This document shows, piece by piece, positions 11,004 through 49,795 of a DNA stretch of 64,000 nucleotides. The translations under genes were made by a program, and so were the position numbers. The DNA is from Candidatus Cloacimonetes bacterium HGW-Cloacimonetes-3 (GTDB lineage: Bacteria; Cloacimonadota; Cloacimonadia; Cloacimonadales; Cloacimonadaceae). Where the stretch lies: positions 124,001 through 188,000 of the forward strand of contig PHBO01000003.1 in NCBI GenBank assembly GCA_002840645.1, written 5' to 3'. Under the pieces are notes generated by a model. It did not search any database and had not been told where the DNA came from. It saw nothing but the letters and a program-made list of their open reading frames with translations. Position 1 is the stretch's first letter. Every line of letters starts with the position of its first letter.

Positions 11004-11369
11004 TTAACCTATTTTCTTAGTGTGACCTGTACGTCTTTGTCCCGGAGTGAAGAGCGGTTTTCCTGTGGGACCGGTTTTATGGTGATCGTGAAGTGTAGGT
11101 TTGGAAACAGCTTCCGTGCTTTCTTCCACCGGCTTCTCTTCAAACAGCTCGCTGAAGTGTTCTTTCAAATCTTCGTGTTCAGAGACGTATGCTTTCCATG
11201 CTTCCATAGCAGCATCCATTTCCACGCAGCGGGTGCAAAGCACCAACAGATTCTGTTCAGACACACCGATCCAGCCACGATCATAACATGCATCGCAGCT
11301 CTTTTTACGGCGATGTTCTTTAGCAATCAGTTGAGCGGCTTCCAAATGTTTTTCGTCCAGCTTAAACAT
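11004..11369 (-). CDS. Small zinc-ribbon-like protein, unknown function
   Basis: 121 aa, not recognised. Four cysteines in two CxxC pairs (C25/C28 and C45/C48, 16 residues apart) suggest a zinc ribbon near the N-terminus; the rest is an acidic helical region and a basic Gly/Pro/His-containing tail. The ATG at 11369 has AAGGAG 6 nt upstream, so the start is good. It lies upstream of ileS on the same strand with a 117-bp gap that shows nothing clear. Cytoplasmic. Confidence 0.75.
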   Translation of the reverse strand: MFKLDEKHLEAAQLIAKEHRRKKSCDACYDRGWIGVSEQNLLVLCTRCVEMDAAMEAWKAYVSEHEDLKEHFSELFEEKPVEESTEAVSKPTLHDHHKTGPTGKPLFTPGQRRTGHTKKIG

Positions 11370-11492: not shown

Positions 11493-11999
11493 CTATGCCT
11501 TGGGGTTTCTTTTGGTCTTGGGTTTGGGGCTATCCACCGGCAATGCTGTAATCTCTACGATTGGTTCTGCCTCGGCAGTTTTCGGCTCGCTGAACTGCAT
11601 AGGGGAGGAGATCACCGTTTTCTTAAGCTCTACCTTTACGATAGGCTCTAAACGGTGTGTTACCACAAACAAGCTTTTCTGGCGGGACAGCGCAAGCTTT
11701 TCTTCCGCACTCATAGCTGTAATTTCGTTCAAGTTAACCACCCGCTCGATTTTGCCGGTGATCATGTCCACGATCTGGACAAAGGATTGTTTCTCTGCCA
11801 TGAAGTGAACCTCCATTTCATATTTATCTGGGAATTTCTTACAGATTTCAAGGATAAAGTTGAGGTATTCTTTAGCATGAAGATGGTGCCAGGCACGGAA
11901 GCTCTTGCATTTGAATATACGGGGGCAAACGGCACAATATGGAGGTGCCGGTTCACGGTAACGTTTCAGTTCACAAGAGTAGAGTCTGGCTTTTTTCAT
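11493..11999 (-). CDS. Hypothetical Cys-containing protein
   Basis: 168 aa, not recognised. The first 31 residues carry four cysteines (C9, C22, C25, C31) around an aromatic, basic segment (PRIFKCKSFRAWHHLHAK), possibly a metal site. The middle (about 45-110) looks like a small alpha/beta domain, and the last 50 residues are a low-complexity Pro/Lys/Glu tail. The ATG at 11999 is preceded only by a weak GGG. It is followed on the same strand by the 11004-11369 gene, also a small Cys-pair protein; a shared role is only a guess. Confidence 0.65.
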   Translation of the reverse strand: MKKARLYSCELKRYREPAPPYCAVCPRIFKCKSFRAWHHLHAKEYLNFILEICKKFPDKYEMEVHFMAEKQSFVQIVDMITGKIERVVNLNEITAMSAEEKLALSRQKSLFVVTHRLEPIVKVELKKTVISSPMQFSEPKTAEAEPIVEITALPVDSPKPKTKRNPKA

Positions 12000-12086: not shown

Positions 12087-12252
12087 GCAGATTGAGCGGA
12101 TTTACACGGATTGATTTGGCAAATTAGAGTATAATTGATGCAAAGGGATAGAGCAATGGCGGTATTTACTTATGACGTGAATCGGTGTTTCCCGATTACA
12201 GTCCATTTATCAAATTTTATCCGTGTAAATCCGCCCAATTCGCCCAATCTGC
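12087..12252. repeat. Inverted repeat with GGATTTACACGGAT-type arms
   Basis: The left arm (12087-12111) contains CGGATTTACACGGAT and the right arm (12219-12252) contains its complement ATCCGTGTAAATCCG, extended by two CGCCCAAT-like units. About 107 bp separate them. This sequence type recurs as intergenic repeats in many bacterial genomes. It fills most of the 291-bp gap 12000-12290, where I see no gene. Confidence 0.7.
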
Positions 12253-12290
12253 GTCCCAATTACCTAAATCCGAACAAGGAGATAAGCAGC

Positions 12291-13562
12291 TTAGAAGTAT
12301 CTAATCCAGATATATAGCGTGGCTATTATTAGGGAATTAAGCGTATAGATCAACCCGATTTTCGTGAAGTCCTTAAAGGAGATATGGAATCCATTTCTAT
12401 TAGCAATTCCTACGGAAACGATATTCGCTGAGGCACCTATCAAGGTTCCGTTTCCGCCCAGACATGCGCCTAAGGACAAAGACCACCACACAGGGTGCAT
12501 AAGTTCCCTCGGGATGCCGGCTCCTATCTTCTGGATCAAAGGTATCATCGTAGCCACAAAGGGCACGTTATCCACGATTGCAGAAAAGATACCGGAGAAC
12601 CACAGAATAATAAACGACGTAGTTTTCAGGTTACCCCCGGTGGAACTGATAATCTTCTTGGCTGCGATGTCCATAACCCCGGTAGCGATAAGGCTTTCCA
12701 CGATCATAAACAAGCCAATGAAAAACAGGATAGTTGCCCAATCTATATCATGGATTAATACAGAATCCACTTTCTTACGGTTGTTGATTATCAGCAGTAC
12801 CAAGCCTGCAAGCATTGCAATGGTAGAGATTTCCATCTTAAGCCGGGATTGAAAGAGAAAGGCTGTAAGCATTATGCCCACAACCACCAAAACTCTGTGC
12901 AGCAGTTTTCTGTTTCTGATCAGATTATCTTCGCTAAACTCCATCAATCTGGCTTTATTTTCGTTGGTAACCGTCATTTTTTTACGAAAAAGCAGATAAG
13001 TTAGCCCCAAACTGCTGATCATGATTATAATAATTACCGGTGTCAAGTGGTAGATAAAGTCTGTAAACGTATAATCTGTAGCGCTTCCGATCATGATATT
13101 AGGCGGATCGCCCACCATCGTAGCCGTGCCACCTATGTTTGAGGCAATTGCCATCGTGATAATAAACGGCACCGGGCTTATCTTAAGTTCGCTTGCTATC
13201 AGCAAAGCTATGGGAATCAGCATCATCACTGTGGTCACATTATCCAGTATTGCCGAGATAAAGGCTGTTACGGCAAACATAAACAGCATTATGCGGATTG
13301 GCTTTGCCTTCGCTGCTTTAGCTGTTTTGATCGCCACATACTGAAATACCCCGGTTTCTTTTAACACAGACATCACCATCATCATCCCGATCAGCAGGAA
13401 GATAACATTCCAATCCACAGCACCAAAAGCACGTTCTTGCCCCACCAGTCGGAGCGTTACAACCACAAAGCCACCCAATAGGGCAGCAGTCATTTTATTT
13501 ACCCATTCGGTCATTATCAGCACATAGGTAAAGCCGAAAATCAAGATTGAAATTAGCATCAT
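12291..13562 (-). CDS. ArsB/NhaD/SLC13-type membrane permease (copy 1)
   Basis: 423 aa with about 11 membrane helices and no signal peptide. It belongs to the ion-transporter superfamily (ArsB/CitMHS/SLC13): two inverted halves are visible, each with a substrate-loop motif, TMVGDPPNIMIGSA in the first half and NGTLIGASANIV in the second, plus ILDNVTTVMM and IVDNVPFVATMIP. The ion or acid carried cannot be read from sequence. It is 5 bp downstream of the EIIA-CBS gene, so the two are one transcription unit. A close paralogue is encoded at 15019-16299. Confidence 0.88.
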   Translation of the reverse strand: MMLISILIFGFTYVLIMTEWVNKMTAALLGGFVVVTLRLVGQERAFGAVDWNVIFLLIGMMMVMSVLKETGVFQYVAIKTAKAAKAKPIRIMLFMFAVTAFISAILDNVTTVMMLIPIALLIASELKISPVPFIITMAIASNIGGTATMVGDPPNIMIGSATDYTFTDFIYHLTPVIIIIMISSLGLTYLLFRKKMTVTNENKARLMEFSEDNLIRNRKLLHRVLVVVGIMLTAFLFQSRLKMEISTIAMLAGLVLLIINNRKKVDSVLIHDIDWATILFFIGLFMIVESLIATGVMDIAAKKIISSTGGNLKTTSFIILWFSGIFSAIVDNVPFVATMIPLIQKIGAGIPRELMHPVWWSLSLGACLGGNGTLIGASANIVSVGIANRNGFHISFKDFTKIGLIYTLNSLIIATLYIWIRYF

Positions 13563-13567
13563 AGCGG

Positions 13568-14467
13568 TTATGCTTTAAACACCTTTTTAAATACGTCCAT
13601 AGCGGTAATCACACCTACCAGCTTGCCATTATCCACCACCGAGAACAACCTCTTTTTATGCTGGATCATCTCAAATACTGCTTCAATAATGGAGTCGCTG
13701 GATTTCAGCGGTTCATCCTCGGTGGACATAATATCTTTCACTGTTTTGACGTCCTGGGTGGCAAAAAGCTTCTCAAGAGGCTCAAAGTTGCTCAGAAACC
13801 CAAGATGATCCATCATCAGCATATAATCCGGGATGCCCACCTTCAGCAAGTTCAAAACATCCACTTCGCCTTTGTAATTCATCTCTTTATCCACCACCGG
13901 CATACCGGCCACTTTGTGCTCACTCATCAGATTGCTAAGCTCTCTCAAAGTTGCTTCAGGCAAAACACTAACCGGTTTGGCTATCATGATATCGCCAATC
14001 GTAACCTTATCCTTCACAGTTATATTCAGTTGTTTCAGCGTTTGTATTATTCCGTGCCCATCTTTCACCTGATTCAGCTTGGCTATTGCTTCGGTATCTT
14101 TAGATAACTTCAACAGTGCGGACACGATATTCAGATAAAGCTTTGAGGAAGATGTATCCGTAATTATCAATATTACCAGCTTGATGGGTATTCCATCATG
14201 ATCTATCGGGTTGCTAAGGAAACACATCGATATCAATGTATCATTAAAACCATCCATGCGCACATGAGGAATGGAAATGCCTGTAGCATACGCTGTGGTA
14301 GATACGGCATCGCGTGCCAGAATCATATCCAATAGCTTTTTACCGCAAGAGGGTAGCTTATGGATGCGGCATATTCTGCTAACCATTTCGCTATAAACTT
14401 CTTCTTTTGTCTTAGGAGAAGCTTCGAAGTATATCGTCTGTGCGTCCAAGTAACTTGATAGTAACAT
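13568..14467 (-). CDS. PTS EIIA-2 domain fused to paired CBS domains
   Basis: 299 aa from the ATG at 14467, preferred because AGGAG lies 6 nt upstream and the EIIA fold begins right there; an in-frame ATG at 14548 would add 27 polar residues. Residues about 1-145 are a PTS EIIA type 2 domain with the phosphorylatable His68 in GISIPHVR. Residues about 165-299 are two CBS units (IGDIMIAKPVSVLPEATLR and VKDIMSTEDEPLKSSDSI) that usually bind adenine nucleotides. Directly upstream of permease copy 1 and divergent from copy 2, it probably couples phosphorylation and energy state to transport. No EI or HPr gene is in the window. Confidence 0.88.
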   Translation of the reverse strand: MLLSSYLDAQTIYFEASPKTKEEVYSEMVSRICRIHKLPSCGKKLLDMILARDAVSTTAYATGISIPHVRMDGFNDTLISMCFLSNPIDHDGIPIKLVILIITDTSSSKLYLNIVSALLKLSKDTEAIAKLNQVKDGHGIIQTLKQLNITVKDKVTIGDIMIAKPVSVLPEATLRELSNLMSEHKVAGMPVVDKEMNYKGEVDVLNLLKVGIPDYMLMMDHLGFLSNFEPLEKLFATQDVKTVKDIMSTEDEPLKSSDSIIEAVFEMIQHKKRLFSVVDNGKLVGVITAMDVFKKVFKA

Positions 14468-15018
14468 ATTAATCTCCTGAGTGTCTTCAGTCTGGCGCAT
14501 AGTAATTTCTTTTGTTTTATGGTCAAGCAATTTCTGCTTTCTGCTCATTCTTACTCTTTCCTACCTCAAGGCAAATTATCTCATCTCTAATCATCCTTTA
14601 GTCATTCTTTAATGATTCCTTAATCAGATTAGGGAATAGCTACAGTTTTATTAGAGGAGAATTAGATATCATATAGTATGCCAAAAGACGGGCTTTTAGG
14701 TTTATCGGCAAGTGAGTTAAGTGAAAAAACAAGTTAGTAAGCAAGGTGAATCGGCAACTTCGGGACATTTCAATCTGGGAAATGGAGGGTTGTAAACCAA
14801 CAAGTCGCTTGACAGATTAGCCATTTCTACAGCTTTGTGAATAAACTTCATACTAAAAGAGGTAAGAATGTACCGTATCTTGGTGAAAATGCTGCTTGAT
14901 GCTAACAAGGAACGGGGCTTTTGTGTAAACAGTTGCCAGAGCATATTCAGGCGAAAAAACTGCATAGATTCCCACTTGATTTCGTGGACACAATCATGAA
15001 AGAGGTTTGGGCTAAAGC
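14468..15018. other. Divergent control region between the two permease units
   Basis: 551 bp with no gene I can support. It must hold the promoters of EIIA-CBS (-) and permease copy 2 (+). At 14591-14637 there is a degenerate array of about 11-bp units ending in a palindrome. A TTGACA at 14811 has no convincing -10 partner. Only weak AGAGG lies upstream of 15019. Confidence 0.5.
14615..14637. repeat. Short imperfect palindrome, degenerate relative of 1755-1815
   Basis: ATTCCTTAATC and GATTAGGGAAT pair with one mismatch around a single A. The preceding 25 bp look like imperfect 11-bp copies of the same unit, giving the tandem-plus-inverted layout seen at 1755-1815. Confidence 0.6.
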
Positions 15019-16299
15019 ATGCATTTAATGCTACTTGCATTGGCTGTTTTTGCTGCTACCTATATATTTATCATCACCGAATGGATAAATAAAATGCTTG
15101 CCGCCATGATTGGTGGCTTTATCATCGTACTGCTTGGCATCGTTAATCAGCATACCGCTTTTGCTGCTATAGACTGGAATGTGATCTTCTTCCTGATCGG
15201 GATGATGTTGGTAATATCGGTGATGCGGGAAACAGGGCTGTTTATGTATATTGCCATCAAGACAGCCAAGCTCGCACAGGGTAAGCCGTTGCGGATTATG
15301 CTATTTATGTTTGTTACAACAGCAGTTGTTTCGGCGTTTTTAGGCAGTGTAACTACGATTATGATTCTGGTGCCGATTGTGATGTTGATAACGGCAGAAT
15401 TGAAGATAAACTCTGCTCCCTTTGTGATAACCATGGTGCTGGCTTCCAATATGGGTGGTGCTGCCACGATGATTGGCGATCCGCCTAACATCCTGATAGG
15501 TAGTGCCACGGATTATAGTTTTTTGGATTTTGTAATAAACCTTACTCCTCCCGTGCTGATGATTGTTAGCAGCAGCCTGTTGCTGATTTACCTGCTTTAC
15601 CGCAAAAACATGAAGGTAAGCAACGAAAGCCGGGCAAAGCTGATGGAATACAGCGAGAATAACCTGATTAAAAACAAACGTTTGCTGTATTTTTCCCTGT
15701 TTGTGTTGGTGCTGATGCTGCTGGCATTTAGCATGCAAACGGTGTTGGGGCTGGAAACAGCTACTATCGCCATGGCAGCAGGATTAACCCTGGTAGCGGT
15801 TGGCAGCCGTAAGAAAGTGGAAAAAGTGCTTACGCATGATATAGATTGGATTACGATATTCTTCTTCATAGGCTTGTTTATGATAGTGGAATCGCTTGTG
15901 GAAACAGGGTTTATAGATATCATTGCAGGCAGCGTAATGAAGATAACCAAAGGCGAACCGAGAGCTACGTCCATGGTGGTGCTGTGGGTATCAGGCATTT
16001 TCTCCGCCATAATAGATAATGTCCCCTTTGTGGCTGCCATGATTCCTATGATAGAGAAGCTGTCCGTATATATCGGAGATCCTGCTAAGATGCACCCCTT
16101 GTGGTGGTCTTTGTCCTTAGGAACCTGCCTGGGAGGCAACGGAACCCTTATCGGTGCTTCTGCCAATATCGTTGCGATAGGGATAGCCAATCATAATGGG
16201 CTTAATATCTCATTTAAGGATTTTACCAAAGTGGGGGTAGTGTTTACCCTTAACTCTATGCTGCTATCCACCTTATACATTTGGTTCAGGTACTATTAA
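15019..16299 (+). CDS. ArsB/NhaD/SLC13-type membrane permease (copy 2)
   Basis: 426 aa, about 11 membrane helices, clearly paralogous to copy 1 over its full length: FIITEWINKMLAAMIGGF at the N-terminus, TMIGDPPNILIGSATDY in the first half-loop and NGTLIGASANIVAIGIAN in the second. Substrate unknown; anions such as carboxylates or arsenite, or sodium/proton exchange, are possible for the superfamily. ATGs at 15019 and 15028 are both possible; the first gives a complete first helix. It is transcribed away from EIIA-CBS across a 551-bp region and converges on the GNAT gene 13 bp from its stop. Confidence 0.87.
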   Translation: MHLMLLALAVFAATYIFIITEWINKMLAAMIGGFIIVLLGIVNQHTAFAAIDWNVIFFLIGMMLVISVMRETGLFMYIAIKTAKLAQGKPLRIMLFMFVTTAVVSAFLGSVTTIMILVPIVMLITAELKINSAPFVITMVLASNMGGAATMIGDPPNILIGSATDYSFLDFVINLTPPVLMIVSSSLLLIYLLYRKNMKVSNESRAKLMEYSENNLIKNKRLLYFSLFVLVLMLLAFSMQTVLGLETATIAMAAGLTLVAVGSRKKVEKVLTHDIDWITIFFFIGLFMIVESLVETGFIDIIAGSVMKITKGEPRATSMVVLWVSGIFSAIIDNVPFVAAMIPMIEKLSVYIGDPAKMHPLWWSLSLGTCLGGNGTLIGASANIVAIGIANHNGLNISFKDFTKVGVVFTLNSMLLSTLYIWFRYY

Positions 16300-16312
16300 T
16301 CTATCCTGCTGA

Positions 16313-17146
16313 TTAGTCCTTTTTTAGTACCAGCATGTTTTCCACGGGCTTGCTCTCCTTATCCCAGAACTTGAAGCCTGCTTTGTGTAAGCTGGGTAAG
16401 TAACGCTTGAATTGGGTGGGGACTATTAGAACATAGTGCTTGAAAGGGCTGAAGAAATACTGGAAATAGGCTAATTCCGCTTGTAAGTTCTTTGGGGGAG
16501 GGGATAGCAGGATAATGCACCTTTCTGTGATACCGCCTGCTAAATACATTGCCTGAGGGGTTTGGAACATCACTGCTCTTTCTTTCAGGAAGTTCAGGGA
16601 TTCCGGGCAATTGTGCACTGTTTGCCATCCACAGGGTATGTAGCTTGGATAAGCCCGGAACTGGGACATATCAACATCTATTATCACAGGCTTGGTTTGC
16701 CTTTTAACGCCATGCTTGTCTAAAGCATAGAAGCCTTGCACTTGTTTGAACCCCTGTTTCCTGGTTAAGTGTAAGCTCTCCACATTCTGGTAATAAGTGC
16801 AGAATTCGAAGCTAAGCAGGGGGTCTTTTGCTTGTAACTTTGCGGCAAAACGGAACATTTCACGGTTCATCAGAGAAGCCACTCCCATGCCTTGAAAGCG
16901 GTTCAGCACGCGCAAGCCTTCGAACCACAACACATGATCGGGGAACATGCTAAGCTTTATACACGCTATCGCCCTGCCTTCATACTCACACACAAAGAAA
17001 TATGGCTCGGAAAGCCAGCGGGGTAATAACTTAGGCAGGTAATCACTCCCTCCCCAGATACCGCGTGCTATTGCCAACAGATCATCGGTATCTGCCTCTG
17101 TGGCAAGACGGATGATGCACTCTGCAAGGTTTAGTGAAGCTTTCAT
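16313..17146 (-). CDS. GNAT-family acetyltransferase
   Basis: 277 aa from the ATG at 17146, which has AAGGA at suitable spacing; the TTG at 17155 would sit on the ribosome site. Residues about 10-150 form a GNAT fold with the acetyl-CoA loop RFQGMGVASLM (R/QxxGxG/A type) and a following strand/helix pair (SFEFCTYYQNVESLHLTRKQGFK). The C-terminal 130 residues (from about 150) may be a second, degenerate half. Substrate unknown. No clear operon partner; it converges with permease copy 2. Confidence 0.82.
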   Translation of the reverse strand: MKASLNLAECIIRLATEADTDDLLAIARGIWGGSDYLPKLLPRWLSEPYFFVCEYEGRAIACIKLSMFPDHVLWFEGLRVLNRFQGMGVASLMNREMFRFAAKLQAKDPLLSFEFCTYYQNVESLHLTRKQGFKQVQGFYALDKHGVKRQTKPVIIDVDMSQFRAYPSYIPCGWQTVHNCPESLNFLKERAVMFQTPQAMYLAGGITERCIILLSPPPKNLQAELAYFQYFFSPFKHYVLIVPTQFKRYLPSLHKAGFKFWDKESKPVENMLVLKKD

Positions 17147-36398: not shown

Positions 36399-38573
36399 AT
36401 GAAAACGAACCTAAAGTTGCTGTGTACCCTACTGTTCCTGATTGCAGCAGTTTTACCTGTTTTTGCTGTTTTCCCGGATAGCAAGCCCCAAGAACAGATC
36501 CAGGCAAGCGAACTTAGCTCTGAAAACAGAGAGCCTACCCGCGTGAATCAGGACATCTATGAACCGGATAACACTGCCACAGACGCAACTTCGTTAGGGG
36601 CAAATGAAGCTCCCCAGATCCAACATCATACTATGCACGTGGAAAGTGACGTGGACTGGTATGTCCTGGGGGGTAATTTGGGCGATAAGTTTCATATATA
36701 TACCACTACTGTCTATCCCTCTGTGGTTAGAATGTGCGTAAATGTATACAGGCGAGCTTATAATGGAACCTACACGAGTGTCAATTACGAGGGTATAGGT
36801 TACGGAGAAAGAATTGATATCACCATAACCCACGAAGGTAATTGTGGCTACTTGATTGAGCTGTTAAGCTCATATGGAGGGGAGGCGGGGTCTTATGAGT
36901 TCTGGTACCAAACAATACAACCGGACAGCTATGAACCGGATAACTCCGCCAGCCAATTCACAACAATATCGCCCAGTAGGGATCTCCAGATTGAGAATCA
37001 CACCCTGCACACCTACACAGACAATGACTGGTACCGCTTTTATGGTTATGCCGGTGTGAGCTATCTTTTCTACTCCACCGGTCCCGTGGACATTGACTTG
37101 GGCGTGTTTGGGGATGATGGAACCACCGATCTAACGCATGACTATGATAGCGGGGACGACTACAATTTCAGGAAGGTCTTTACCCCCACTGCTGATGCTT
37201 ACTACAAACTTTGGGTGAAAAGCTGTTGGGGCCTCGAACACAGCTTCTCAACCCCAATTGGTTATTATGGGTTCTGCTACTCCTTAAATCCAATTTCTGA
37301 TGACTATGAGCCGGATAATTCCGCCACTCAGTTTACCGTCATCCCTGTCTCGACCAACAACCAGACCCAGAACCACACCCTACACAGCAACGACGACCAG
37401 GATTGGTATAGGTTTTATGGCTATGCCGACAGGATATACCAATTCTATTCCACCTCTACCACCGATACCCAGATATATCTGTATGATGATTATGGCACAC
37501 TGATAGATTGGGACGACAATGACGGGGATGGCAACAACTTCTACCTTCGGTCATCGCTTCCCGGAGATGGCTTTTACAAGGTGAAAGTGGTGGGTAATGC
37601 AGGAGCCACTGGATTTTATTGGTTTAGTTACTCCGAAGTACCAGCTCAGGACATCGACGAACCCGATAATTCTGCCACTCAGTTTACCGTCATCGGTGTC
37701 AGTTCCCTCAACCAGACCCAAGACCACACCCTGCACACCAACACCGACCAGGATTGGTTCAGAATCTATGGATATACTGACAGGCTCTACCGATTTTGGT
37801 CTACCTCTACCATCGATACCCAGATCTATCTGTATGATGATTATGGCACACTGCTCGATTGGGACGATAATGATGGGACTGGCAGCAACTTCTATCTTCA
37901 GTTCTCGGTACCCGAAAATGGCTACTACAAGCTGAAAGTTGTAGGTAGTTCAGGGGCCACCGGTTACTATACCTTAAATTGGAATTACGGACTCTTTCCT
38001 GATAATTTTGAGCCCGATGATTCCGCCACTCAATACACAGCAATATCCGTGTCTTCCACCCTCCAATCCCAAATCCACAACTTCCACAATGCTGGTGAAC
38101 AAGACTGGTTCCGGTTCTATGGAACAGCAGGACTGACCTACAACTTCTTTTCTACAGGGAATTCCGACACCCGCATCTATCTCTATGAAGACAATGGAAG
38201 CTCTCAACTGGATTGGAACGATAACGACGGGGAAGACTGGAACTACAGCCTTCAATTCACTCCCACCACCAATAACTATTATAAATTGAAGGTAAATGGC
38301 TATCCCACTCAGGTGGGTACTTATGTCTTTAATTACTTGTATAATGCTGATCTCTCTACCCCTGCCAATGTCAATCTCAGCATCGTCGGGACTTCGCTGA
38401 CCATCACTTGGGATGAGGTAGCTGGGGCAGTAAGCTATCAAATAGAAGCTTCTGCTGATCCTTATTCAGGTTTTGCGGTGATCGGCACGACAGGCTCTAC
38501 CTCCTGGACAGGCACAATCACCTTAGACCGCGGATTCTACCGCATCAGAGCTACAGATACCCCCGTGCCCTGA
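36399..38573 (+). CDS. Secreted protein with five PPC-like repeats
   Basis: 724 aa with a signal peptide MKTNLKLLCTLLFLIAAVLPVFA. Five repeats of about 115-125 residues follow, each with EPDNSATQFT-like entry and QDWYRFYGY-like core, starting near bases 36552, 36924, 37302, 37650 and 38001; these are bacterial pre-peptidase C-terminal (PPC)-like beta domains. Repeats three and four are nearly identical at DNA level. The last 75 residues look like a fibronectin-III module (NLSIVGTSLTITWDEV). No sorting tail. Extracellular or surface; probably binding, no catalytic domain seen. The ATG follows AGGAG. Confidence 0.88.
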   Translation: MKTNLKLLCTLLFLIAAVLPVFAVFPDSKPQEQIQASELSSENREPTRVNQDIYEPDNTATDATSLGANEAPQIQHHTMHVESDVDWYVLGGNLGDKFHIYTTTVYPSVVRMCVNVYRRAYNGTYTSVNYEGIGYGERIDITITHEGNCGYLIELLSSYGGEAGSYEFWYQTIQPDSYEPDNSASQFTTISPSRDLQIENHTLHTYTDNDWYRFYGYAGVSYLFYSTGPVDIDLGVFGDDGTTDLTHDYDSGDDYNFRKVFTPTADAYYKLWVKSCWGLEHSFSTPIGYYGFCYSLNPISDDYEPDNSATQFTVIPVSTNNQTQNHTLHSNDDQDWYRFYGYADRIYQFYSTSTTDTQIYLYDDYGTLIDWDDNDGDGNNFYLRSSLPGDGFYKVKVVGNAGATGFYWFSYSEVPAQDIDEPDNSATQFTVIGVSSLNQTQDHTLHTNTDQDWFRIYGYTDRLYRFWSTSTIDTQIYLYDDYGTLLDWDDNDGTGSNFYLQFSVPENGYYKLKVVGSSGATGYYTLNWNYGLFPDNFEPDDSATQYTAISVSSTLQSQIHNFHNAGEQDWFRFYGTAGLTYNFFSTGNSDTRIYLYEDNGSSQLDWNDNDGEDWNYSLQFTPTTNNYYKLKVNGYPTQVGTYVFNYLYNADLSTPANVNLSIVGTSLTITWDEVAGAVSYQIEASADPYSGFAVIGTTGSTSWTGTITLDRGFYRIRATDTPVP

Positions 38574-38619
38574 ACCTGCGGGAAACTCATGATATATATA
38601 AAACTATAGGAGTTAAAAA

Positions 38620-41271
38620 ATGAAAACCAAGCTTACACTTCTCTTTTCCGTGTTGTTGCTGCTTGTAGTAGCAATGCCTGTTTTTGCGTCCGTTCAGGAT
38701 AGATGCCTCAATTTTGAGGAGGGTGATTATGTAACGTGTTCCGGCATACCCAGTTCTACTTCCCTGACTATCGAGGGCTGGATCAAACATTCCGATTTAA
38801 GCGCGGAAATCCAGAATTACGTTAACATCCCTAACTTCTTTGCTGGAATTCGCAAGAATGGGAACCAGGTAGATTTCTACGTTAAGCAATTCACGGGAAG
38901 TATGACTGCATCTGTATTTCATGTTTACGGAGGAACCCTGTCAGCCGGAGAGTGGACCCATGTTGCAGGAACATATGCGGGATCCATGCTGAAATTATAC
39001 GTGAACGGCATTTTAGTAAACCAAGCGGCTACTCCTGCAGGGGAGTTAGTTCCTAACACAGGCAGCTTCCTAATCAGTAATAGCGTTGAATCCATGCACG
39101 GCAAAATTGACGATGTCCGGCTGTGGAATACCGCGCGTTCACAAGCACAAATTGCAGATAACCGCTTCAATGAGCTTACCGGCACAGAAACAGGCTTGGT
39201 TTCCTACTGGAAATTCAATGAGGGCAGCGGAACTGTAGCCAATGACGTCAAAGGCACTTCCCATGGAACTCTGGTTAATATGACTGATGCAAACTGGGTT
39301 GTTTCTGGACCCGAAGGCGAATGGCTATGGGCTAAGCAAGGTGGAGGTACAAGCGAGGATTATGTTCGGGATATTGCCAAGGACAGCAACGGGAACACTT
39401 ATGTGGTAGGGAATTTCTATGGCACTGCAACTTTTGGCTCTTTTACGGTCAGCAGTTTTACAGCTTCTGCGCCGGCAGGGCAGGAATATTCCAATAACAT
39501 TTATGTTGCTAAACTGGATGCCGATGGTAACTACCTCTGGGCAACCGAAGCTGGAGGGTACCTATTTGAAAGTGGCTACTGTATCGCTACGGACACAGAT
39601 AGTAACGTTTATATAACGGGTATTTTCAACGGACAAGCCGATTTTGGATCAATATCGCTAACAAGTAGCGGAAGTAGTGACATCTTTATCGCCAAGCTGG
39701 GTACCAACGGCAATTGGATGTGGGCAAAGCAAGCCGGGGGCACAGGTGCAGATATCGGCACCAGCATTGCCATCAGCACCATGAACATCGTCTATGTAAC
39801 TGGTGCTTATACCGGTACTGCCACTTTTGGCACACAATCGCTAACCAGCAGTGGTGGGGACGATATCTTTATTGCCAGGATAAACAACAATGGAAGTTGG
39901 GGATGGGCAAGGAGTGCCGGGGGCACCGGTACTGACCGAGGCTACGGTATAGCCGTTTACGGTGACAACAGTATTTGTGTTACAGGCAGTTTTGCCGGCA
40001 CAGCCACTTTTGGCACCACACAACTCATCAGTAATGGGAGTAATGATGTCTTTATTGTTAAGCTGAATAGCAATGGCAGTTGGGATTCGCATCTTCTTCA
40101 GCAATGCGGTGGTTCCGGGAGTGACATTAGTTACGGTATAGACTGCGACAGCAGCGGGAATTTCTATGTGACAGGAACATTTAATGGCACAGCCACTTTT
40201 GGCGCATTCACGCTAACCAGCAATGGAAATGAGGATATCTTTGTTATTAAGCTGGGCTTCGCTGGCAACTGCCTATGGGCAAAGCAAGCCGGGGGCACAA
40301 GCAATGATAACGGCTATGGCATTGCTTCCGGCAGAGATGGAAGTTGCTATATTACAGGGCCTTTCACCGGCAGCGCCACTTTTGGTGCCAAACAGCTCAG
40401 CAGCTTGGGTAGCAGTGATATCTATATCGCCAGGCTGGATAGCAATGGCAACTGGCTATGGGCAATAAAAGCCGGAAGCTCATCCGCTGATTTTGGTTAC
40501 GGTATTACCTCGGACACAGATGGTTATGCCTATGCTACGGGGACTTTTAAAGAAACCGTTTCCTTTGGTTCTTCTTCACTCACCAGTGGCGGGCAAAGTG
40601 ACGTGTTTATCGCCAAGATAGATCAGGATCATCCATTTTTGGCAATTAAAGGTTTATCAGTTGCTTTCGGTATCGGCTATCTTGGCGATACTACAACCCA
40701 TAACTTATGGCTAAAGAACGGCGGATATGATGAATCACTTAGAGTGGAATCCTTTGCTTTTGGACAACCAGGCTCCCCCTTCGATGTAGTAGGGCATATA
40801 CCCTGCGAGATTGCCCCGGGAGATAGTGTTTCTTTTCAAATCCGCTTCACGCCGGTAGTCTCAGGTGCAGTTTCTGACATACTGAACATATACAATAATT
40901 CGGGTAATCTGCCCATATTAGAAATCAGCTTAAGTGGAACGGGGGAATCCGTGGAGCCACTACAGCCACCCTTGAATGTATGCATCACTATGAATGGGAA
41001 TGATGCGCAAATAAGCTGGGATGCGGTATCAGAGCCCATTGTGCCGGATTATTATCTGGTGTTCTTTAATGGATCGGCAGATATAAATGCAGATTTCTAC
41101 TATCATGGGGCAACTACGGGTTTGCAATATACGCATTATCTGGTGGGCTTGCATTCTGCCCATATTTTTTACCGCATAATAGCCTATAAATCCGGTGGCA
41201 GAAACGCACCGGACTTAGCAGAACTGAGACAGGGAATGAGCGAAGCTGAAGTGCTAAGAATCCTTAGATGA
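38620..41271 (+). CDS. Secreted LamG / SBBP-propeller / choice-of-anchor protein
   Basis: 883 aa with a signal peptide (MKTKLTLLFSVLLLLVVAMPVFA). Residues about 28-225 are a LamG/concanavalin-like module (LTIEGWIKHSD, VAGTYAGSMLKLYVNG). Residues about 235-665 hold seven SBBP-type beta-propeller repeats of about 60 aa, each with WLWAKQAGGT-like opening and FGTATFG plus DIFIAKL elements. A choice-of-anchor / ASPM-like domain follows (LAIKGLSVAFGIGYLGD, FTPVVSGAVSD), then a short FN3-like end. It has no sorting tail. Likely surface or extracellular carbohydrate- or matrix-binding. The ATG at 38620 has AGGAG. Confidence 0.88.
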   Translation: MKTKLTLLFSVLLLLVVAMPVFASVQDRCLNFEEGDYVTCSGIPSSTSLTIEGWIKHSDLSAEIQNYVNIPNFFAGIRKNGNQVDFYVKQFTGSMTASVFHVYGGTLSAGEWTHVAGTYAGSMLKLYVNGILVNQAATPAGELVPNTGSFLISNSVESMHGKIDDVRLWNTARSQAQIADNRFNELTGTETGLVSYWKFNEGSGTVANDVKGTSHGTLVNMTDANWVVSGPEGEWLWAKQGGGTSEDYVRDIAKDSNGNTYVVGNFYGTATFGSFTVSSFTASAPAGQEYSNNIYVAKLDADGNYLWATEAGGYLFESGYCIATDTDSNVYITGIFNGQADFGSISLTSSGSSDIFIAKLGTNGNWMWAKQAGGTGADIGTSIAISTMNIVYVTGAYTGTATFGTQSLTSSGGDDIFIARINNNGSWGWARSAGGTGTDRGYGIAVYGDNSICVTGSFAGTATFGTTQLISNGSNDVFIVKLNSNGSWDSHLLQQCGGSGSDISYGIDCDSSGNFYVTGTFNGTATFGAFTLTSNGNEDIFVIKLGFAGNCLWAKQAGGTSNDNGYGIASGRDGSCYITGPFTGSATFGAKQLSSLGSSDIYIARLDSNGNWLWAIKAGSSSADFGYGITSDTDGYAYATGTFKETVSFGSSSLTSGGQSDVFIAKIDQDHPFLAIKGLSVAFGIGYLGDTTTHNLWLKNGGYDESLRVESFAFGQPGSPFDVVGHIPCEIAPGDSVSFQIRFTPVVSGAVSDILNIYNNSGNLPILEISLSGTGESVEPLQPPLNVCITMNGNDAQISWDAVSEPIVPDYYLVFFNGSADINADFYYHGATTGLQYTHYLVGLHSAHIFYRIIAYKSGGRNAPDLAELRQGMSEAEVLRILR

Positions 41272-41981
41272 GGCTTTATTGCGGGATATATAGCCTAGAA
41301 CCGGAGAACAGGTTCTAATTAATAGACTGATAGTCCTTTTTTTCTGTAGGATGGGGTACGGGAAGTTTAGCTGGACGCATGCTAAGCTTCCCTGATATCT
41401 CCTTTTCCTAACCATGTATCAACTTATTTAGGACGGGTCAGCTTCCTTGCTCCAATTACTTATGCATTACGCATGAAATACGGATCGCATCCGTAATTCA
41501 TGCGTAATGATAGCGTATCTGTAGCAGGCAATACTTATTCAATAAAATGCCGAAATCCAAGCTCAGCTTGACTTTAAAAAAGCCAGTTCCATAATCTGGG
41601 CATTATTTACTTTTCACACAGTGGCTATATTTGAGTTAAACTGTGGTACGCATTGGTATCAGACTCTTTATGTGCGAATTTTTAACCCGCTGTTTTTTAC
41701 TTTCAATACCGGCTGGACAAGTATAAGGACAGCATTGATCTGGTTAAGGATAATTGAAAGAAAAAAAAGAAGTTAAGTTCTGCTCGTTTGATGAAAATTG
41801 CCTGCTGTAAGGTTCTGGAATAATTTGTTTGACGTGATATCGATGCTTTCTATTGTGGGTGCCGTCTCTTAGTAAGCACAGAAACGGTGTTCGATTATAA
41901 GCTTTGAACACTTTCTGGGCAATGTATTGAACGCTAAAGCATTGATAGTGAGGCATGCTTAGATAAACGGGAGAATGTAAT
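41272..41981. other. 710-bp intergenic region
   Basis: No gene supported. It separates two plus-strand secreted-protein genes. It contains the repeat copy B at 41454-41509. A 5-bp hairpin GAACC/GGTTC near 41297 is too weak to call a terminator. Confidence 0.5.
41454..41509. repeat. Dispersed palindromic repeat, copy B
   Basis: Bases 41465-41509 are a 45-bp imperfect palindrome (CATTACGCATGAAATACGGAT facing its complement with one mismatch) around a 3-nt centre. Bases 41454-41485 match copy A (25474-25505) at 31 of 32 positions. Confidence 0.85.
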
Positions 41982-43682
41982 ATGGACAATCCGCTGAAGG
42001 TTGCATTATTTGTGGTAGTGCTGTTTTGGTCATTACGCCTATATGGTCAGTTTTCTGCAGGTACGGGAACTCAATCAGACCCTTACATTGTTACTACTGC
42101 TACGGAACTGGATAGTGTCCGTTTCCACTTGGACTCATGTTTCCTACAAGTTGCCGACATTGATCTTGGGAGTGTTCAATACACTTCGAGTATCGGCTGG
42201 CAACCTCTGGCAAGCTACAGTGTTTTCGGAGCATTTACCGGTTCCTATGATGGTAATGGACATACAATAGCGAATCTTACGATAAACAACGAAGCAGCAG
42301 GCTATCTGAGTTTGTTTGGGGAGATTGATAGCGCCACGATAAAGAATGTATCGTTAGAAAACATAGATATCAGAGCGGGTGGTTCATCTGGTGGACTGGT
42401 TGGTTACGCTGTGAATTCAGAGATAATCAACTGTTTTGTAGTAGGAACAATGAGAGCGTCTGATAACTGCGGGGGAATAGTGGGTAGCGCTTTGTTTTCT
42501 ACTATCCAAGAATGCAGTGCTACAATTTCGATACTTGGACGGGAAAATGTGGGGTGCATAGCCGGAATTATCTATAGCAGCAATATTGTAAGATCACATG
42601 CTGTAGCCTCTATTGCACAAGCAAGAATGGCTTTAGGAGGGATTTGCGGTAATTCATCGGGAGATAGTGAAATAGGAGTTAGTGAAATAGTAGATTGCAC
42701 TGCAAGTGGCTCTCTTTACAGCACAGACAATAGCGGCGGAATAGTGGGATTTGCTAGGAAAACCCTTATAGAGCGTTGCAGCAGCGAATTTGATATCATC
42801 TGGGGTTCAATGCGTTCCGGTGGAATTCTTGCTGAAAGCTGGTATCTTGTAACTATCCGAGATTGCCATGCGGTTGCTTCAGTAGAAGGGCAGGATGCTG
42901 TAGGGGGTATCGCTGGAACAATAAGTGGACAATCCAACATCACCCGAAGTTACTTCACTGGTAATGTAATGGGAGTAAGACTTGTAGGGGGAGTAGCTGG
43001 TGGGGTTTCTCAAAGCGAAATATTTGATTGCTTTGCTAATGCTACTGTGTCTGGATCGGACATTGTTGGTGGTTTTGCAGGTTCAGCCAGCTATTCTTAT
43101 ATTTACGATTGCTATTCTACGGGTTTGGTAACCTGTACCGATGGGCAGATTGGAGGTTTTATTTCATCCGGGCAGAATTTATCTACTAGTAATTGCTATT
43201 GGGACATGGATACTTCGCAAACAACAGTCTCATATGCAGGGAACGGCAGAAATACGTCTCAAATGACATTCCCTTATGACAATAACACTTATCTCAATTG
43301 GGACTTTACCCAGTATTGGGCTAATGACACGGGTTTGACTAATGGAGGCTATCCCATCTTGATCGCGCCAACGGTTGCAAACCAAGATGAGTACATCACT
43401 CCTGCCGTAACAATCAGCTTGCGTGCTTACCCCAATCCATTTATTGGGTCATTGAATCTGGCAATAACCGGATTGAAGGGAAGGGAGACGCAAGTGAATA
43501 TATATAATATCCGGGGTCAACTGGTGAAAAAGCAGTTTATTAACAGCCCCATGGATGGCAAAACCAGCTTCGCATGGGATGGTAAGGACGAGTTCGGTAA
43601 AGATACAACAGCAGGAGTATACATAATAAAGGTTCAGAGTGGGGGAGAATCGGTAGTTTTAAGAGGAATAAAAATACATTAG
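41982..43682 (+). CDS. Secreted GLUG-repeat protein with FlgD-like sorting tail
   Basis: 566 aa with a signal-like N-terminus (KVALFVVVLFWSLRLYGQF). Residues about 120-410 hold many copies of the GLUG-type motif, such as GGLVGYAVNSEI, GGIVGSALFSTI, GGIVGFARKTLI and GGVAGGVSQSEI, giving a solenoid-like or stacked-beta fold; these repeats occur in surface adhesins and peptidases. The C-terminal 80 residues carry YPNPFIGSLNLAITG, VNIYNIRGQLVKKQF and GVYIIKVQSGGE: a FlgD/T9SS-type-A-like tail. Probably exported to the surface. Unlike the two genes before it, it carries the tail. Confidence 0.88.
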   Translation: MDNPLKVALFVVVLFWSLRLYGQFSAGTGTQSDPYIVTTATELDSVRFHLDSCFLQVADIDLGSVQYTSSIGWQPLASYSVFGAFTGSYDGNGHTIANLTINNEAAGYLSLFGEIDSATIKNVSLENIDIRAGGSSGGLVGYAVNSEIINCFVVGTMRASDNCGGIVGSALFSTIQECSATISILGRENVGCIAGIIYSSNIVRSHAVASIAQARMALGGICGNSSGDSEIGVSEIVDCTASGSLYSTDNSGGIVGFARKTLIERCSSEFDIIWGSMRSGGILAESWYLVTIRDCHAVASVEGQDAVGGIAGTISGQSNITRSYFTGNVMGVRLVGGVAGGVSQSEIFDCFANATVSGSDIVGGFAGSASYSYIYDCYSTGLVTCTDGQIGGFISSGQNLSTSNCYWDMDTSQTTVSYAGNGRNTSQMTFPYDNNTYLNWDFTQYWANDTGLTNGGYPILIAPTVANQDEYITPAVTISLRAYPNPFIGSLNLAITGLKGRETQVNIYNIRGQLVKKQFINSPMDGKTSFAWDGKDEFGKDTTAGVYIIKVQSGGESVVLRGIKIH

Positions 43683-43804
43683 CTTGCTCGACTATGAGCA
43701 GGGTATTGTGTGGTGATTATTACCACTACAAAAACATAAGAAATTGGTTGACTTATCCCAAGGTATAAAAAACCATGTTCTTTACATAAATATTCGGTGA
43801 GATC

Positions 43805-44278
43805 ATGAGTAAACTATTCAAACCAGACTTGGTAAAAATTGTCGATAAATTCGACACAAAGGGCGAATGCCTGGACTTTATGGCAGCGATGCTGTCCACA
43901 AGCGGGTGCCTAAGTTTTCCGGATCGGTTCCTTGCCGCGGTTAAGGGACGTGAGGAGATAATGAGCACCGGTATCGGACGCGGGATTGCTATACCTCATG
44001 CCAGAGACCTTACGGTGAACAGCTTGCGGATTGCGGTCTGCATGGTTAAACAAGAGATGGAGTTCAATAGTGTGGATAGCTTGCCGGTGCGCGTAGTGTT
44101 TATGATAGCAGTGCCTCAAAGCTCAAACCAGGACTACATGAAAATATTACGCTCACTCTCGGAATACTTAAGGCGGGAAGAAAACCGTGAAAACCTATTT
44201 AATGCGGGTAGCGAAGGTGATTTATATGATAAAGTTAATAAACTTGAGGATGTTATCCGTCCTCATCTCAGCGTGTAG
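43805..44278 (+). CDS. PTS EIIA type-2 (PtsN-like) protein
   Basis: 157 aa, a stand-alone PTS EIIA-2/nitrogen-PTS-like domain with the phosphorylatable His65 in GIAIPHARD. It has no CBS or other extra domain. Such proteins are phosphorylated by EI/HPr-type carriers and regulate transporters and kinases. It overlaps the downstream PorV-like gene by 53 bp, but no sugar permease is adjacent. A second EIIA lies at 13568-14467. The ATG at 43805 is preceded by GGTGAG. Confidence 0.88.
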   Translation: MSKLFKPDLVKIVDKFDTKGECLDFMAAMLSTSGCLSFPDRFLAAVKGREEIMSTGIGRGIAIPHARDLTVNSLRIAVCMVKQEMEFNSVDSLPVRVVFMIAVPQSSNQDYMKILRSLSEYLRREENRENLFNAGSEGDLYDKVNKLEDVIRPHLSV

Positions 44279-45200
44279 CCTGCTCTTAGCAGTACCGCTG
44301 TTTGCCCAACACCAGGATGCCGGAACCACCGGCTTCTCTAATTTGAAGCTGATCTATTCCGCACGGGCAAATGGGATGGGACAGGCGATGACAGGCAGAG
44401 TGCAGAACTATGATGGGATGCAGTTCAACCCTTCCTCAATTATGAGGGTACCGGGGAAAAGCGTTTCCAGCACTTTCATGGATCATTTTGTGGGCAGTGG
44501 GGGAGGCTCTGTACAATACGTAATCCCCAAGAATATCTATGTGACCTATGGAGCTTTTATAAATTACTGGAATTCCGGTACTATAGACCGCACCGAGATA
44601 AGCAGCAACTTCGATCTGGTGGAAACAGGTGATACCTTTGGATCACAGAATATAATTGCCGGCGTTACCTACGCCAAATTTATTAGTCCGGCAGTAGATT
44701 TTGGAGTCACAGTAAAAGGGATGTTGGATCAGATAGATAACAGTTCCGCCAGTGCCGCATTGGTAGATCTGGGGATTATGCATCACACTGTGAACGAGAA
44801 GATAAAAGTGGGGCTGGCAATCCGCAATCTGGGTGCTCAGCTAAGCTATTACAGCGACACCAAATATAAAGAAACCCTACCAACCACGTACCTTGTCGGT
44901 ATGGGGATGGATTTATCTGCGGATTCACATGCCAATCTGGATATCGTGAAAGCCACGGGAGAAAACTTTGTGGGCAAGCTGGGCGTGGAACACCGAATCC
45001 ACCCATCATTTGTCTTGCGAGGTGGATTCCGAAGTAATGCAGGAGACTATTACAATGGAGGCGTTTTGGCTTTTACCTCCGGATTGAGCCTTGGTTTGGG
45101 CTGGGATTGGAAAAGCTGGGTGGTGGACTACTCCATCTCCTCCTATGGTGATCTTGGATTAGCCAATCAGCTTGGCATTAGATATAATTTCGGTAACTAA
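44226..45200 (+). CDS. PorV-like / UPF0164-type outer-membrane barrel (copy 1)
   Basis: 324 aa from the ATG at 44226, preferred over 44187 because GAAGGTG lies upstream and it gives a good signal peptide (MIKLINLRMLSVLISACS). The N-terminal SARANGMGQAMTGRVQNYDGMQFNPSS is the PorV/UPF0164 signature. Repeated beta strands with Gly and aromatic residues follow to the terminal IRYNFGN. PorV-type barrels shuttle or receive secreted T9SS-like substrates at the outer membrane. It overlaps the EIIA gene by 53 bp and precedes glyS by 22 bp. Confidence 0.85.
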   Translation: MIKLINLRMLSVLISACSLLLAVPLFAQHQDAGTTGFSNLKLIYSARANGMGQAMTGRVQNYDGMQFNPSSIMRVPGKSVSSTFMDHFVGSGGGSVQYVIPKNIYVTYGAFINYWNSGTIDRTEISSNFDLVETGDTFGSQNIIAGVTYAKFISPAVDFGVTVKGMLDQIDNSSASAALVDLGIMHHTVNEKIKVGLAIRNLGAQLSYYSDTKYKETLPTTYLVGMGMDLSADSHANLDIVKATGENFVGKLGVEHRIHPSFVLRGGFRSNAGDYYNGGVLAFTSGLSLGLGWDWKSWVVDYSISSYGDLGLANQLGIRYNFGN

Positions 45201-45222
45201 AAAAAAGAAGCCTGAGGGTTAT

Positions 45223-47319
45223 TTGGAAAAGCGACCTTTTTTACTGGAACTGGGATGCGAAGAGCTTCCCGAAAAGCAACTTGATATAGCAATAGAAACT
45301 GTCAGAGAAGCGTTTGGCAAGTTTCTTGGGGATAATAATCTTTCCTGCGATACTTATCAGGTGAGTGGAACTCCCCGCCGGATATTTATTCTTAGCGAAG
45401 CAATGGATGACAAACAGGCAGATGTGGAAGTGCAAAAGCTTGGTCCCGCGGTTGGTATTGCCTACACTGCCGAGGGAAAGCTTGGTCCCGCCGGGCTTGG
45501 CTTTCTAAAGAAAAGCGGTGGCTCGGAAAGCGATAGCTTTGTGCTGGAGAACGAAAGGGGCAAGTTTCTGGCGGTTAAATTCCTGCAAAGAGGGAAAACC
45601 ACTCCTGAATTGCTGAAGCCTTGGATAACAGAACTGGTTTCGCAGATACCCTTTACCAAGAAGATGATTTGGAACGATGCTACGTTTAGTTTTTCGCGTC
45701 CTCTGCGCTGGATTTTAGCCTTGTGGAATAGCGAACTGCTGGATTTACAAATAGGCGGTATTAGCAGCAAGCGGATTAGTTTTGCTAACCGCTATTTAGG
45801 CATGGATACGGAGATACCTGTGCATGAAGCCGGCCATTACCTTAGTGCTTTGAAGACGCATAAAGTACTGGCAAATATCGAAGACCGTAAACAGGTTCTC
45901 ACAGAACAGCTTGCCGGGATATTCCCTTCTGGTAGCTACCATGTAGTAGAAGATTTACGCTTGGTGGATACGGTTACTAATTTAGTGGAAAGTCCCTATG
46001 CTGTAGTAGGTGAATTCGAAGCTAAATATCTGATATTGCCGGAGAAGATAATAATCAGCACCATCAGCCAGAACCAGAAATACTTTTCTGTTACTGATAG
46101 CGACATGAAGCTTGCGAACAAGTTTGTGTTTATCAGTAATGGTGATCCCTCCTATTCCGATTTGATCAGAAAGGGTAATGAGAAAGTGGTGAATGCCCGC
46201 TTAGCAGATGCCCTCTGGTATTACACTGAAGACACAAAACACCCTCTGGATAGTTTCGTACCCCGCCTGAAGGATGTGGTTTTCCAATCCAAGCTTGGCA
46301 CCATGGCAGAAAAAACAGAGCGGGTAAAAACTCTGTGTGCGGGAATAGCAGATGAGCTTAGGCTTAGTGCTGAAGAAGCGGTAAAAGTGCAGAGATGCGC
46401 AACGCTTTGCAAGGCAGATCTGGTAACCACGATGTTAGGTGAGAAGGAATTTACCAAGCTACAGGGTTATATAGGAAAACAATATGCCTTGGCTACCGGA
46501 GAGGATGCAGATATCGCTGAAGGTATCTACGAACACTACATGCCTCGCGGCAGTGCTGATATGTTGCCTACTACTTTATGCGGAAGCGTGGTGGCAGTAG
46601 CGGACAAAATGGATACCGTAGCCGGGATTATCAGCATTGGGATGATGCCTACCGGCAGTGGAGATCCCTTTGCCCTGCGCCGTGCCGCTAACGGCATTGT
46701 GCAGATAATCAATCAGCGGGCATGGGATATAGATTTGTTCCGTATCGCAGATGCGGCATTGGTGACTGTAATGCAAAATAACATTACCACCCCGCAAGCA
46801 AGAGAAAACATCCATGCTTTTTTAGACCAGCGGGTGGTTTGGTTACTTAAACAACAAGATATTGCCTACGACGTTATAGAAAGTGTGATGCATATCGATA
46901 AATCTCATATTAACGATCTGGAAAAGCGCGCTCGTGCTTTAAACCGGCTAAAATCAGAAACAGATTTTATCAAGCTGGTGATAGGTTTCAAACGTGTTGC
47001 CAATATCATTGCTGAAACAAAAGTGTTTAGTGGCTTACAAGAGCAACTTTTGCAAGAGCCGGCAGAGAAGGAAATCCATAATAGCCTGCAACGCCTGCAT
47101 CAGGAGATTGATACTGTCTTAAGCGTTAAGGACTATCACCTGGCATTGCAGCATTTGATAGTATTTGGCAAAGCTATAGATGCTTTCTTTGATGCGGTGC
47201 TGGTTAATTGCCCTGATGAAGACTTGCGCAGCAACAGACATGCCCTCCTTATGGAGATAAAAAAAGAATTTTTACGCGTTGCAGACCTGTCTTTGATAGT
47301 TCTGGAAAGCGATGTATAG
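45223..47319 (+). CDS. glyS: Glycyl-tRNA synthetase beta subunit
   Basis: About 698 aa, normal for the beta subunit. It binds tRNA-Gly, with a HD-like and an anticodon-binding region: LLELGCEELPEKQL at the N-terminus, HYMPRGSADMLPTTLCGSVVAVADKMDTVAG in the middle. The TTG at 45223 is chosen because GAGG lies 6 nt upstream and it starts at the family N-terminus. The alpha subunit (glyQ) is not adjacent, which is unusual. It follows the PorV-like gene by 22 bp and precedes pta by 12 bp. Confidence 0.95.
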   Translation: MEKRPFLLELGCEELPEKQLDIAIETVREAFGKFLGDNNLSCDTYQVSGTPRRIFILSEAMDDKQADVEVQKLGPAVGIAYTAEGKLGPAGLGFLKKSGGSESDSFVLENERGKFLAVKFLQRGKTTPELLKPWITELVSQIPFTKKMIWNDATFSFSRPLRWILALWNSELLDLQIGGISSKRISFANRYLGMDTEIPVHEAGHYLSALKTHKVLANIEDRKQVLTEQLAGIFPSGSYHVVEDLRLVDTVTNLVESPYAVVGEFEAKYLILPEKIIISTISQNQKYFSVTDSDMKLANKFVFISNGDPSYSDLIRKGNEKVVNARLADALWYYTEDTKHPLDSFVPRLKDVVFQSKLGTMAEKTERVKTLCAGIADELRLSAEEAVKVQRCATLCKADLVTTMLGEKEFTKLQGYIGKQYALATGEDADIAEGIYEHYMPRGSADMLPTTLCGSVVAVADKMDTVAGIISIGMMPTGSGDPFALRRAANGIVQIINQRAWDIDLFRIADAALVTVMQNNITTPQARENIHAFLDQRVVWLLKQQDIAYDVIESVMHIDKSHINDLEKRARALNRLKSETDFIKLVIGFKRVANIIAETKVFSGLQEQLLQEPAEKEIHNSLQRLHQEIDTVLSVKDYHLALQHLIVFGKAIDAFFDAVLVNCPDEDLRSNRHALLMEIKKEFLRVADLSLIVLESDV

Positions 47320-47331
47320 GAGCCTACTGTA

Positions 47332-48339: not shown

Positions 48340-48374
48340 GGATTTCATATCACTAATCTAAAATATAGGGGGAT

Positions 48375-49586: not shown

Positions 49587-49588
49587 AC

Positions 49589-49795
49589 ATGGACGACTTT
49601 GAAGATAGAATTAAAGAACGATGGAAAGAGCGCCGGAAGAAAGCTTATAACTGGCAGAAACTATTGCTGATGGTTTTGGTAGTTGTGGCAATATTTTATA
49701 CCATGGGGCGTTTGCAAAACACCGGCAATATAGTAAGCCAGCCGGCAGCAAGTGTTGTGGACACTCTTGCTGCCGAAACGGAACTAAAACCTTGA
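49589..49795 (+). CDS. 68-aa single-helix membrane protein
   Basis: Starts 2 bp after the aminotransferase stop. A basic N-terminal part (KERWKERRKKAYNW) precedes one membrane helix (LLLMVLVVVAIFYTMG), then a short polar tail. The next gene begins in its stop codon (TTGA overlap), so it lies within a tight operon. Function not known. Confidence 0.7.
   Translation: MDDFEDRIKERWKERRKKAYNWQKLLLMVLVVVAIFYTMGRLQNTGNIVSQPAASVVDTLAAETELKP

Follow-up and report, generated by a model that had tools for sequence, protein, structure and literature searches.

Components of the phosphotransferase system (PTS) act on transporters in several described systems, and among those close to the one presented here is that of PtsN (EIIANtr) of Escherichia coli. 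Unphosphorylated PtsN is reported to bind and inhibit the K+/H+ antiporter YcgO (PMC11808508), and its control of K+ transport, which involves TrkA and KdpD, is the subject of a review (PMC13104625). EIIAGlc acts on LacY and MalK, and LacS of streptococci has an EIIA-type domain that is dedicated to one secondary transporter and is phosphorylated by HPr; this domain is a glucose-type IIA, located on the same chain as a GPH-family sugar transporter (PMC10710835). A further group of transporter regulators carries CBS pairs, as in MgtE, CorB/CorC and OpuA, and the same fold forms the stand-alone CBS proteins AcuB, CBSX2 and DarB. The protein described here, which is referred to as EC, has features of all of these. 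It has the EIIA fold of PtsN and, like it, would belong to a regulatory PTS branch acting on ion transport, but unlike PtsN it carries a CBS pair and shares its locus with a single permease of the ArsB/SLC13 fold. Dedication to a single secondary transporter would be shared with LacS; EC, however, is an ORF separate from that of the permease and combines PTS_EIIA_2 with CBS, so that the two functions are not found on the same polypeptide. From the CBS-pair regulators, with which it has the CBS-pair fold in common (Z about 17.5-18), it differs in joining that pair to a phospho-histidine domain. No description of an EIIA-CBS protein beside a permease was found in the titles and abstract openings of the literature searched, and the main text of PMC2405797 contains neither 'CBS' nor 'antiporter'.

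In the window (the whole stretch of DNA that was analysed, 64,000 nucleotides), EC is encoded on the minus strand at 13568..14467, giving 299 aa from the ATG at 14467. This start is preceded by AGGAG and appears likelier than that of the longest ORF (13568-14548, minus strand, 326 aa); ORFs of 297-303 aa in most EC relatives are close in length to the 299-aa version. Counted from this ATG the active-site histidine is residue 68, which matches the numbering in an earlier reading of this DNA (hereafter the sequence-only reading), and its codon, located from the sequence and the alignment, lies at 14264..14266 on the minus strand within the motif GISIPHVR. That reading had described an EIIA-2 domain with an intact His68 fused to two CBS modules. 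The first part agrees with the Pfam match to PTS_EIIA_2 (PF00359; E 8.8e-22, 78.1 bits against a cut-off of 27); the second needs amending, as there are indeed two CBS repeats (E 3.6e-20), but they form one CBS pair (a Bateman module) and not two modules. EC also scores well below the cut-offs of the PtsN/EIIANtr equivalogs, with 29.4 against 221 bits for NF008145 and 27.5 against 138.7 for TIGR01419. In the structure model (pLDDT 89.2) the N-terminal domain has the EIIANtr fold (2a0j, Z 20.0, rmsd 1.9, 143 residues aligned) and the C-terminal part the CBS-pair fold (AcuB, Z 18.1, 122-125 aligned; CBSX2, 17.7; DarB, 17.5), the top CBS folds matched including nucleotide-bound AcuB, CBSX2 and DarB.

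Two permeases of the ArsB/CitMHS/SLC13 (ion transporter) superfamily flank this gene. P2 (12291..13562, minus strand) starts 5 bp past the EC stop codon, as the sequence-only reading had proposed for an ArsB/SLC13-type permease, even though P2 itself lies outside the range which that reading covered. The second, back-to-back permease that it had described is P3 (15019..16299, plus strand), a divergent paralogue with 61% identity to P2, which starts 551 bp from the EC start on the opposite strand. P3 is outside the EC operon in the window, a point against the regulatory reading given below. A promoter and terminator scan of 12200-16400 returned 10 and 3 sites, respectively, against 10.7 and 3.3 expected from shuffled sequences; as these numbers are close to the expectation, the sites give nothing usable. 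Two small cysteine-containing ORFs, without a Pfam match, also lie near the permease on the minus strand (11493-11999 and 11004-11369), and kin of one window gene, apparently the ORF at 11493-11999, occur near EC in two other loci (L076 and L079).

Both permeases match CitMHS (PF03600) strongly, with E 1.6e-85 for P2 and 3.8e-85 for P3, and both also match ArsB (PF02040). As the Pfam ArsB match is above the cut-off, and the closest solved fold to the permease (P2) model (pLDDT 88.5) is ArsB 10tp with Z 47.3 (rmsd 2.4, 415 residues aligned), the locus could be taken for an arsenite/antimonite efflux system in which EC stands in for ArsA or ArsR as the regulator. This is very unlikely. The fold is common to the SLC13 citrate and sulfate transporters, with further matches of the model to NaCT (Z 39.5), to NaS1, and to VcINDY (Z about 34-36); CitMHS scores 287.6 bits against 78.8 for ArsB; and a Pfam scan of six window proteins showed none of them to be an ars accessory gene. 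The arsenic reading was rejected on the NCBIfam ArsB models, for which P2 and P3 score only 117.4 and 131.2 bits against a cut-off of 457. The two permeases are likewise below the NCBIfam cut-offs for dass (98.9 and 90.5 bits against 198.6) and MamN (175.4 and 187.8 against 500). P2 resembles ArsB and DASS (SLC13) in its fold, and the Asn at both of its re-entrant-loop motifs may correspond to those of the SNT-type motifs of DASS. P2 and P3 are unlike ArsB, DASS and MamN in these scores and in being linked to a phosphorelay protein, and the P3 type differs further in being without the first Asp-Asn.

Both Asp-Asn re-entrant-loop motifs are kept in P2 (LDNVTT and VDNVPF), and in an alignment with VcINDY the Asn of LDNVTT falls on the N of the first SNT motif. 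In P3 the first motif is changed to LGSVTT, with S at the Asn site, and the second is kept (IDNVPF). P2 and P3 may also be comparable to Oca2 (the P protein). In NaCT the matching Asn pair provides ligands of both Na+ and the substrate, and a model of Oca2 is described as keeping both Asn residues (PMC10372470). A tree of 82 permeases (L126, L127, L157 and L128 being left out) places P3 in a clade of 39 rows with support of 100/100, and the first Asp-Asn motif is lost throughout this clade (34 with GS and 5 with DS) while the second is kept. DN is present in both motifs in 36 of the 82, including P2 and the permeases of most Spirochaetota; the second Asp-Asn is lost instead in four, and three have other changes. 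The alignment used for these motifs is of permeases longer than 350 aa, without L126 and L127. From these substitutions it may be that ion coupling has changed in P3. In three related loci (L098, L052 and L057) the genes stand in the order P2-like, EC, P3-like on a single strand, L098, from UBA6081, having the highest identity in the genome scan. A three-gene unit that was rearranged locally would thus seem to account for the layout in the window, where P2 lies downstream of EC and P3 diverges from it.

The sequence-only reading had called for a survey of relatives for the same EIIA-CBS/permease pairing, and it proved to be near-strict and no chance arrangement. A permease lies directly downstream of EC in 80 of 85 loci from Cloacimonadota (50/53, with the window counted) and Spirochaetota (30/32); this count is without L126 and L127, which come from the same genomes as L145 and L154, and some of the permeases counted as paired are cut or frameshifted (L075, L128 and L160). 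The gap between the two genes is -4 to +16 bp in 74 of the 80 paired loci, with a median of 2. Among the 52 Cloacimonadota loci that were fetched, a same-strand permease adjoins EC in 50 and is downstream in 49, the permease of L063 being only upstream. In L092 and L093, from two genomes of one genus (G102 and G103), EC is found among other genes and the permease is on a different contig, and in the Spirochaetota loci L149 and L152 there is no permease downstream of EC. Directly before EC in the Spirochaetota locus L163, at 1056-1514, a separate ORF that appears CBS-like by eye overlaps the EC start.

At the level of genomes, EC occurs in 51 of 124 Cloacimonadota genomes, its own family having it in 45 of 49 (in one as a fragment), and a P2-like permease (E below 1e-60) occurs in 53. 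Both genes are present in 51 genomes, EC only in none, the permease only in two and neither in 71 (Fisher p 6e-33, uncorrected for kinship); since many of these genomes are closely related, they do not provide independent counts. In the two permease-only genomes (G038 and G104) any gene upstream would be missing, because the contig starts within the permease gene or 140 bases before it. A further genome (G059) was left uncounted: its permease match is weaker (1e-41), the gene upstream of that match is a different one, and the 4.2-kb contig carries no EC. As a control, all neighbouring ORFs of 120 aa or more were grouped by family: the permease family is found in 50 of the 53 Cloacimonadota loci and the next family in 11, so that the association, although the genomes are related, is specific and not only a matter of shared chromosome order.

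These data bear on whether EC and the permease could be operon partners that are needed together without contact, EC having its target elsewhere as proteobacterial PtsN does, be it a kinase, an enzyme or some other transporter. PtsN has several targets, KdpD and TrkA among them, as set out in the review of its role in K+ transport (PMC13104625), and in two genomes there is no linkage between EC and the permease. The genes, however, overlap or are at most 16 bases apart in nearly all of the paired loci, other neighbour families reach at most 11 of 53 loci, the permease is present in all 51 EC genomes, the two unlinked ones included, and more distant permeases also follow EC (L157 and L165). We consider partnership without contact unlikely, and favour a direct association of EC with its adjoining permease.

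The pair extends beyond one phylum. The genome scan returned at least 33 EC loci, 29 in Cloacimonadota and 4 in Spirochaetota, and a Spirochaetota search found EC in at least 29 of 392 genomes, the distinct loci considered in this phylum being 32; both spreads are lower bounds, since one peptide pattern served for the scan and no more than six candidates per genome were scored in the search of Spirochaetota. In L157 and L165 EC is followed by a far more divergent permease (25% and 29% identity, respectively), which in L165 is CitMHS by Pfam. A search of a plasmid collection gave one record from a third phylum, L166 of Fusobacterium vincentii (NZ_CP084075.1), with an EC at 27.7% identity and two tandem permeases 217 bp past it. 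This record is labelled as a plasmid and at 2.1 Mb is of chromosome size, and its permeases have a changed second loop motif (GNVANA).

Across Cloacimonadota and Spirochaetota, H68, R52 and P67 are present in all 84 ECs that cover these positions, and H68 and R52 are also kept in the Fusobacterium EC; proteins in which both are unchanged diverge to about 22-25% identity. This invariance makes phospho-acceptance by EC likely, with His68 as the predicted acceptor. The adenosine-site signature of CBS repeats is S/T-x-x-D. In this form it is well kept in CBS2 (S/T in 79 and D in 75 of 85 ECs) and missing from CBS1 in most (S/T in 28 and D in 41 of 85), so that nucleotide binding mainly at one site, CBS2, is plausible; the residue counts are again without L126 and L127. 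By analogy with the structurally similar DarB, the ligand could alternatively be c-di-AMP. EC might then be a sensor of nucleotide or c-di-AMP only, with its EIIA domain a structural remnant, a proposal consistent with the good conservation of CBS2 and with the many transporters that CBS pairs control (PMC10710835). A remnant domain would be expected to lose H68 and R52, and the fact that both are invariant in two phyla, and occur again in Fusobacterium, argues against this and makes it improbable.

Whether a phosphocarrier exists that might serve such a domain was examined in the window's assembly (2.68 Mb, 97.5% complete). It encodes one HPr, one EI and an HPr kinase, all in one cluster, which lies beside genes resembling raiA and rpoN. 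The EI and HPr genes that the sequence-only reading had suggested looking for are thus both present, with the kinase in addition, and EI was found in five of five further EC genomes tested. Neither of the outcomes that the sequence-only reading had named as refuting it, a lack of the pairing in relatives or of a phosphocarrier in the genome, was therefore observed. PTS sugar transporters are a different matter: EIIC (PF02378), EIIB (PF02302) and EII-Sor (PF03609) have no match in the whole assembly, which extends from the locus to the genome the earlier remark that none was visible, for these three families (PF03611, PF00358 and PF03610 being outside the search). A sugar-PTS reading of the locus was rejected on this result. 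It also bears on the idea that EC does not gate the permease but passes phosphate to a sugar-type EIIB or to a substrate in the manner of a true PTS, to which the retained His68 of the EIIA domain would lend itself. With those families lacking a match, and with the permease model matching structures of ArsB and SLC13 along its whole length, phosphate transfer of this kind is highly improbable.

Our preferred reading, which we hold to be probable, is that EC is a separate cytoplasmic regulatory subunit of the adjoining permease, itself predicted to carry an ion or anion, reading the state of the phosphorelay and probably that of the adenine nucleotides. EI and HPr would phosphorylate His68, whereby the EIIA domain would report the PEP/pyruvate and HPr state, and the CBS pair, mainly CBS2, would bind an adenine nucleotide and report energy charge (or c-di-AMP). 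Depending on both inputs, EC would either attach to the permease dimer at its cytosolic face and alter its activity or stay off it; by analogy with PtsN and YcgO, unphosphorylated EC would be the form that binds and restrains transport. As EC is a separate gene, its contact with the permease is read from gene order, and we likewise infer which nucleotide binds, in which direction control runs and what is transported. The proposal of the sequence-only reading that this is a regulator gating transport by energy status therefore fits the pairing and the relay genes, while gating, phosphorylation and nucleotide binding keep the standing of predictions. Taken as a whole, the comparison suggests that EC tunes the transporter to the energy state of the cell.

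EC is one of five EIIA domains in this genome. Another stands alone in the window (43805-44278, plus strand; PTS_EIIA_2, E 2.8e-33), and no obvious sugar-PTS gene was seen by eye among the ORFs around it at 38000-50000. A third is fused to an HTH_17 domain (L010, G000:C4, 6229-6930) and is possibly, judging by its domains, a phosphorelay-controlled DNA-binding protein. The remaining two are found with exchangers: in L011 (G000:C2, 7306-9030) a Na/H-exchanger-family protein has a C-terminal EIIA fused to it, and in L009 (G000:C27, 7075-8735) the last base of an EIIA gene overlaps the start of another exchanger gene, and the pair is followed by a protein of 105 aa that has no Pfam match. With EC, this means that three of the five EIIA domains are tied to transporters by gene order or fusion.

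Nine loci from genomes without EC (L179-L187), chosen by match length for their weaker EIIA matches of about 275-300 aa, were considered as possible missed EIIA-CBS proteins. This was rejected, as the C-terminal part differs and none of the six EIIA proteins scanned with Pfam has a CBS match. All nine instead encode an EIIA protein of about 275 aa with an exchanger-like gene directly beside it. Pfam confirmed six of the EIIA proteins (in L179, L180, L183, L185 and L187) and four exchanger-like neighbours (in L179, L180, L183 and L187), the rest being assigned by eye on sequence similarity. The C-terminal part of this type has no Pfam match and resembles the 105-aa protein of L009; for the three compared directly the identity is 24-29%, with E from 3e-11 to 8e-6. 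These pairs may represent a second type of EIIA-transporter unit.

The association of EC with its permease is best called a real and conserved pairing and a new form of PTS-dependent transporter regulation. More tentatively, and with rather less assurance than for EC itself, EIIA-CBS proteins could be an undescribed regulatory class for ArsB/SLC13-fold transporters with two inputs, histidine phosphorylation and nucleotide, present in at least three phyla; where the PTS moves no sugar, its relay would then have been redirected towards ion transport by attaching EIIA domains to several transporter families, and the two paralogous permeases, one of them without the first Asp-Asn site, would work as a pair that differs in ion coupling. 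Fusobacterium is a culturable genus, and as the pair occurs in one of its species the idea is open to laboratory tests. Together, the EC-permease pair, the exchanger-EIIA fusion and the EIIA-exchanger neighbours suggest that phosphorelay control of transporters is more widespread, and that some PTSs without sugar permeases exist for running ion balance.
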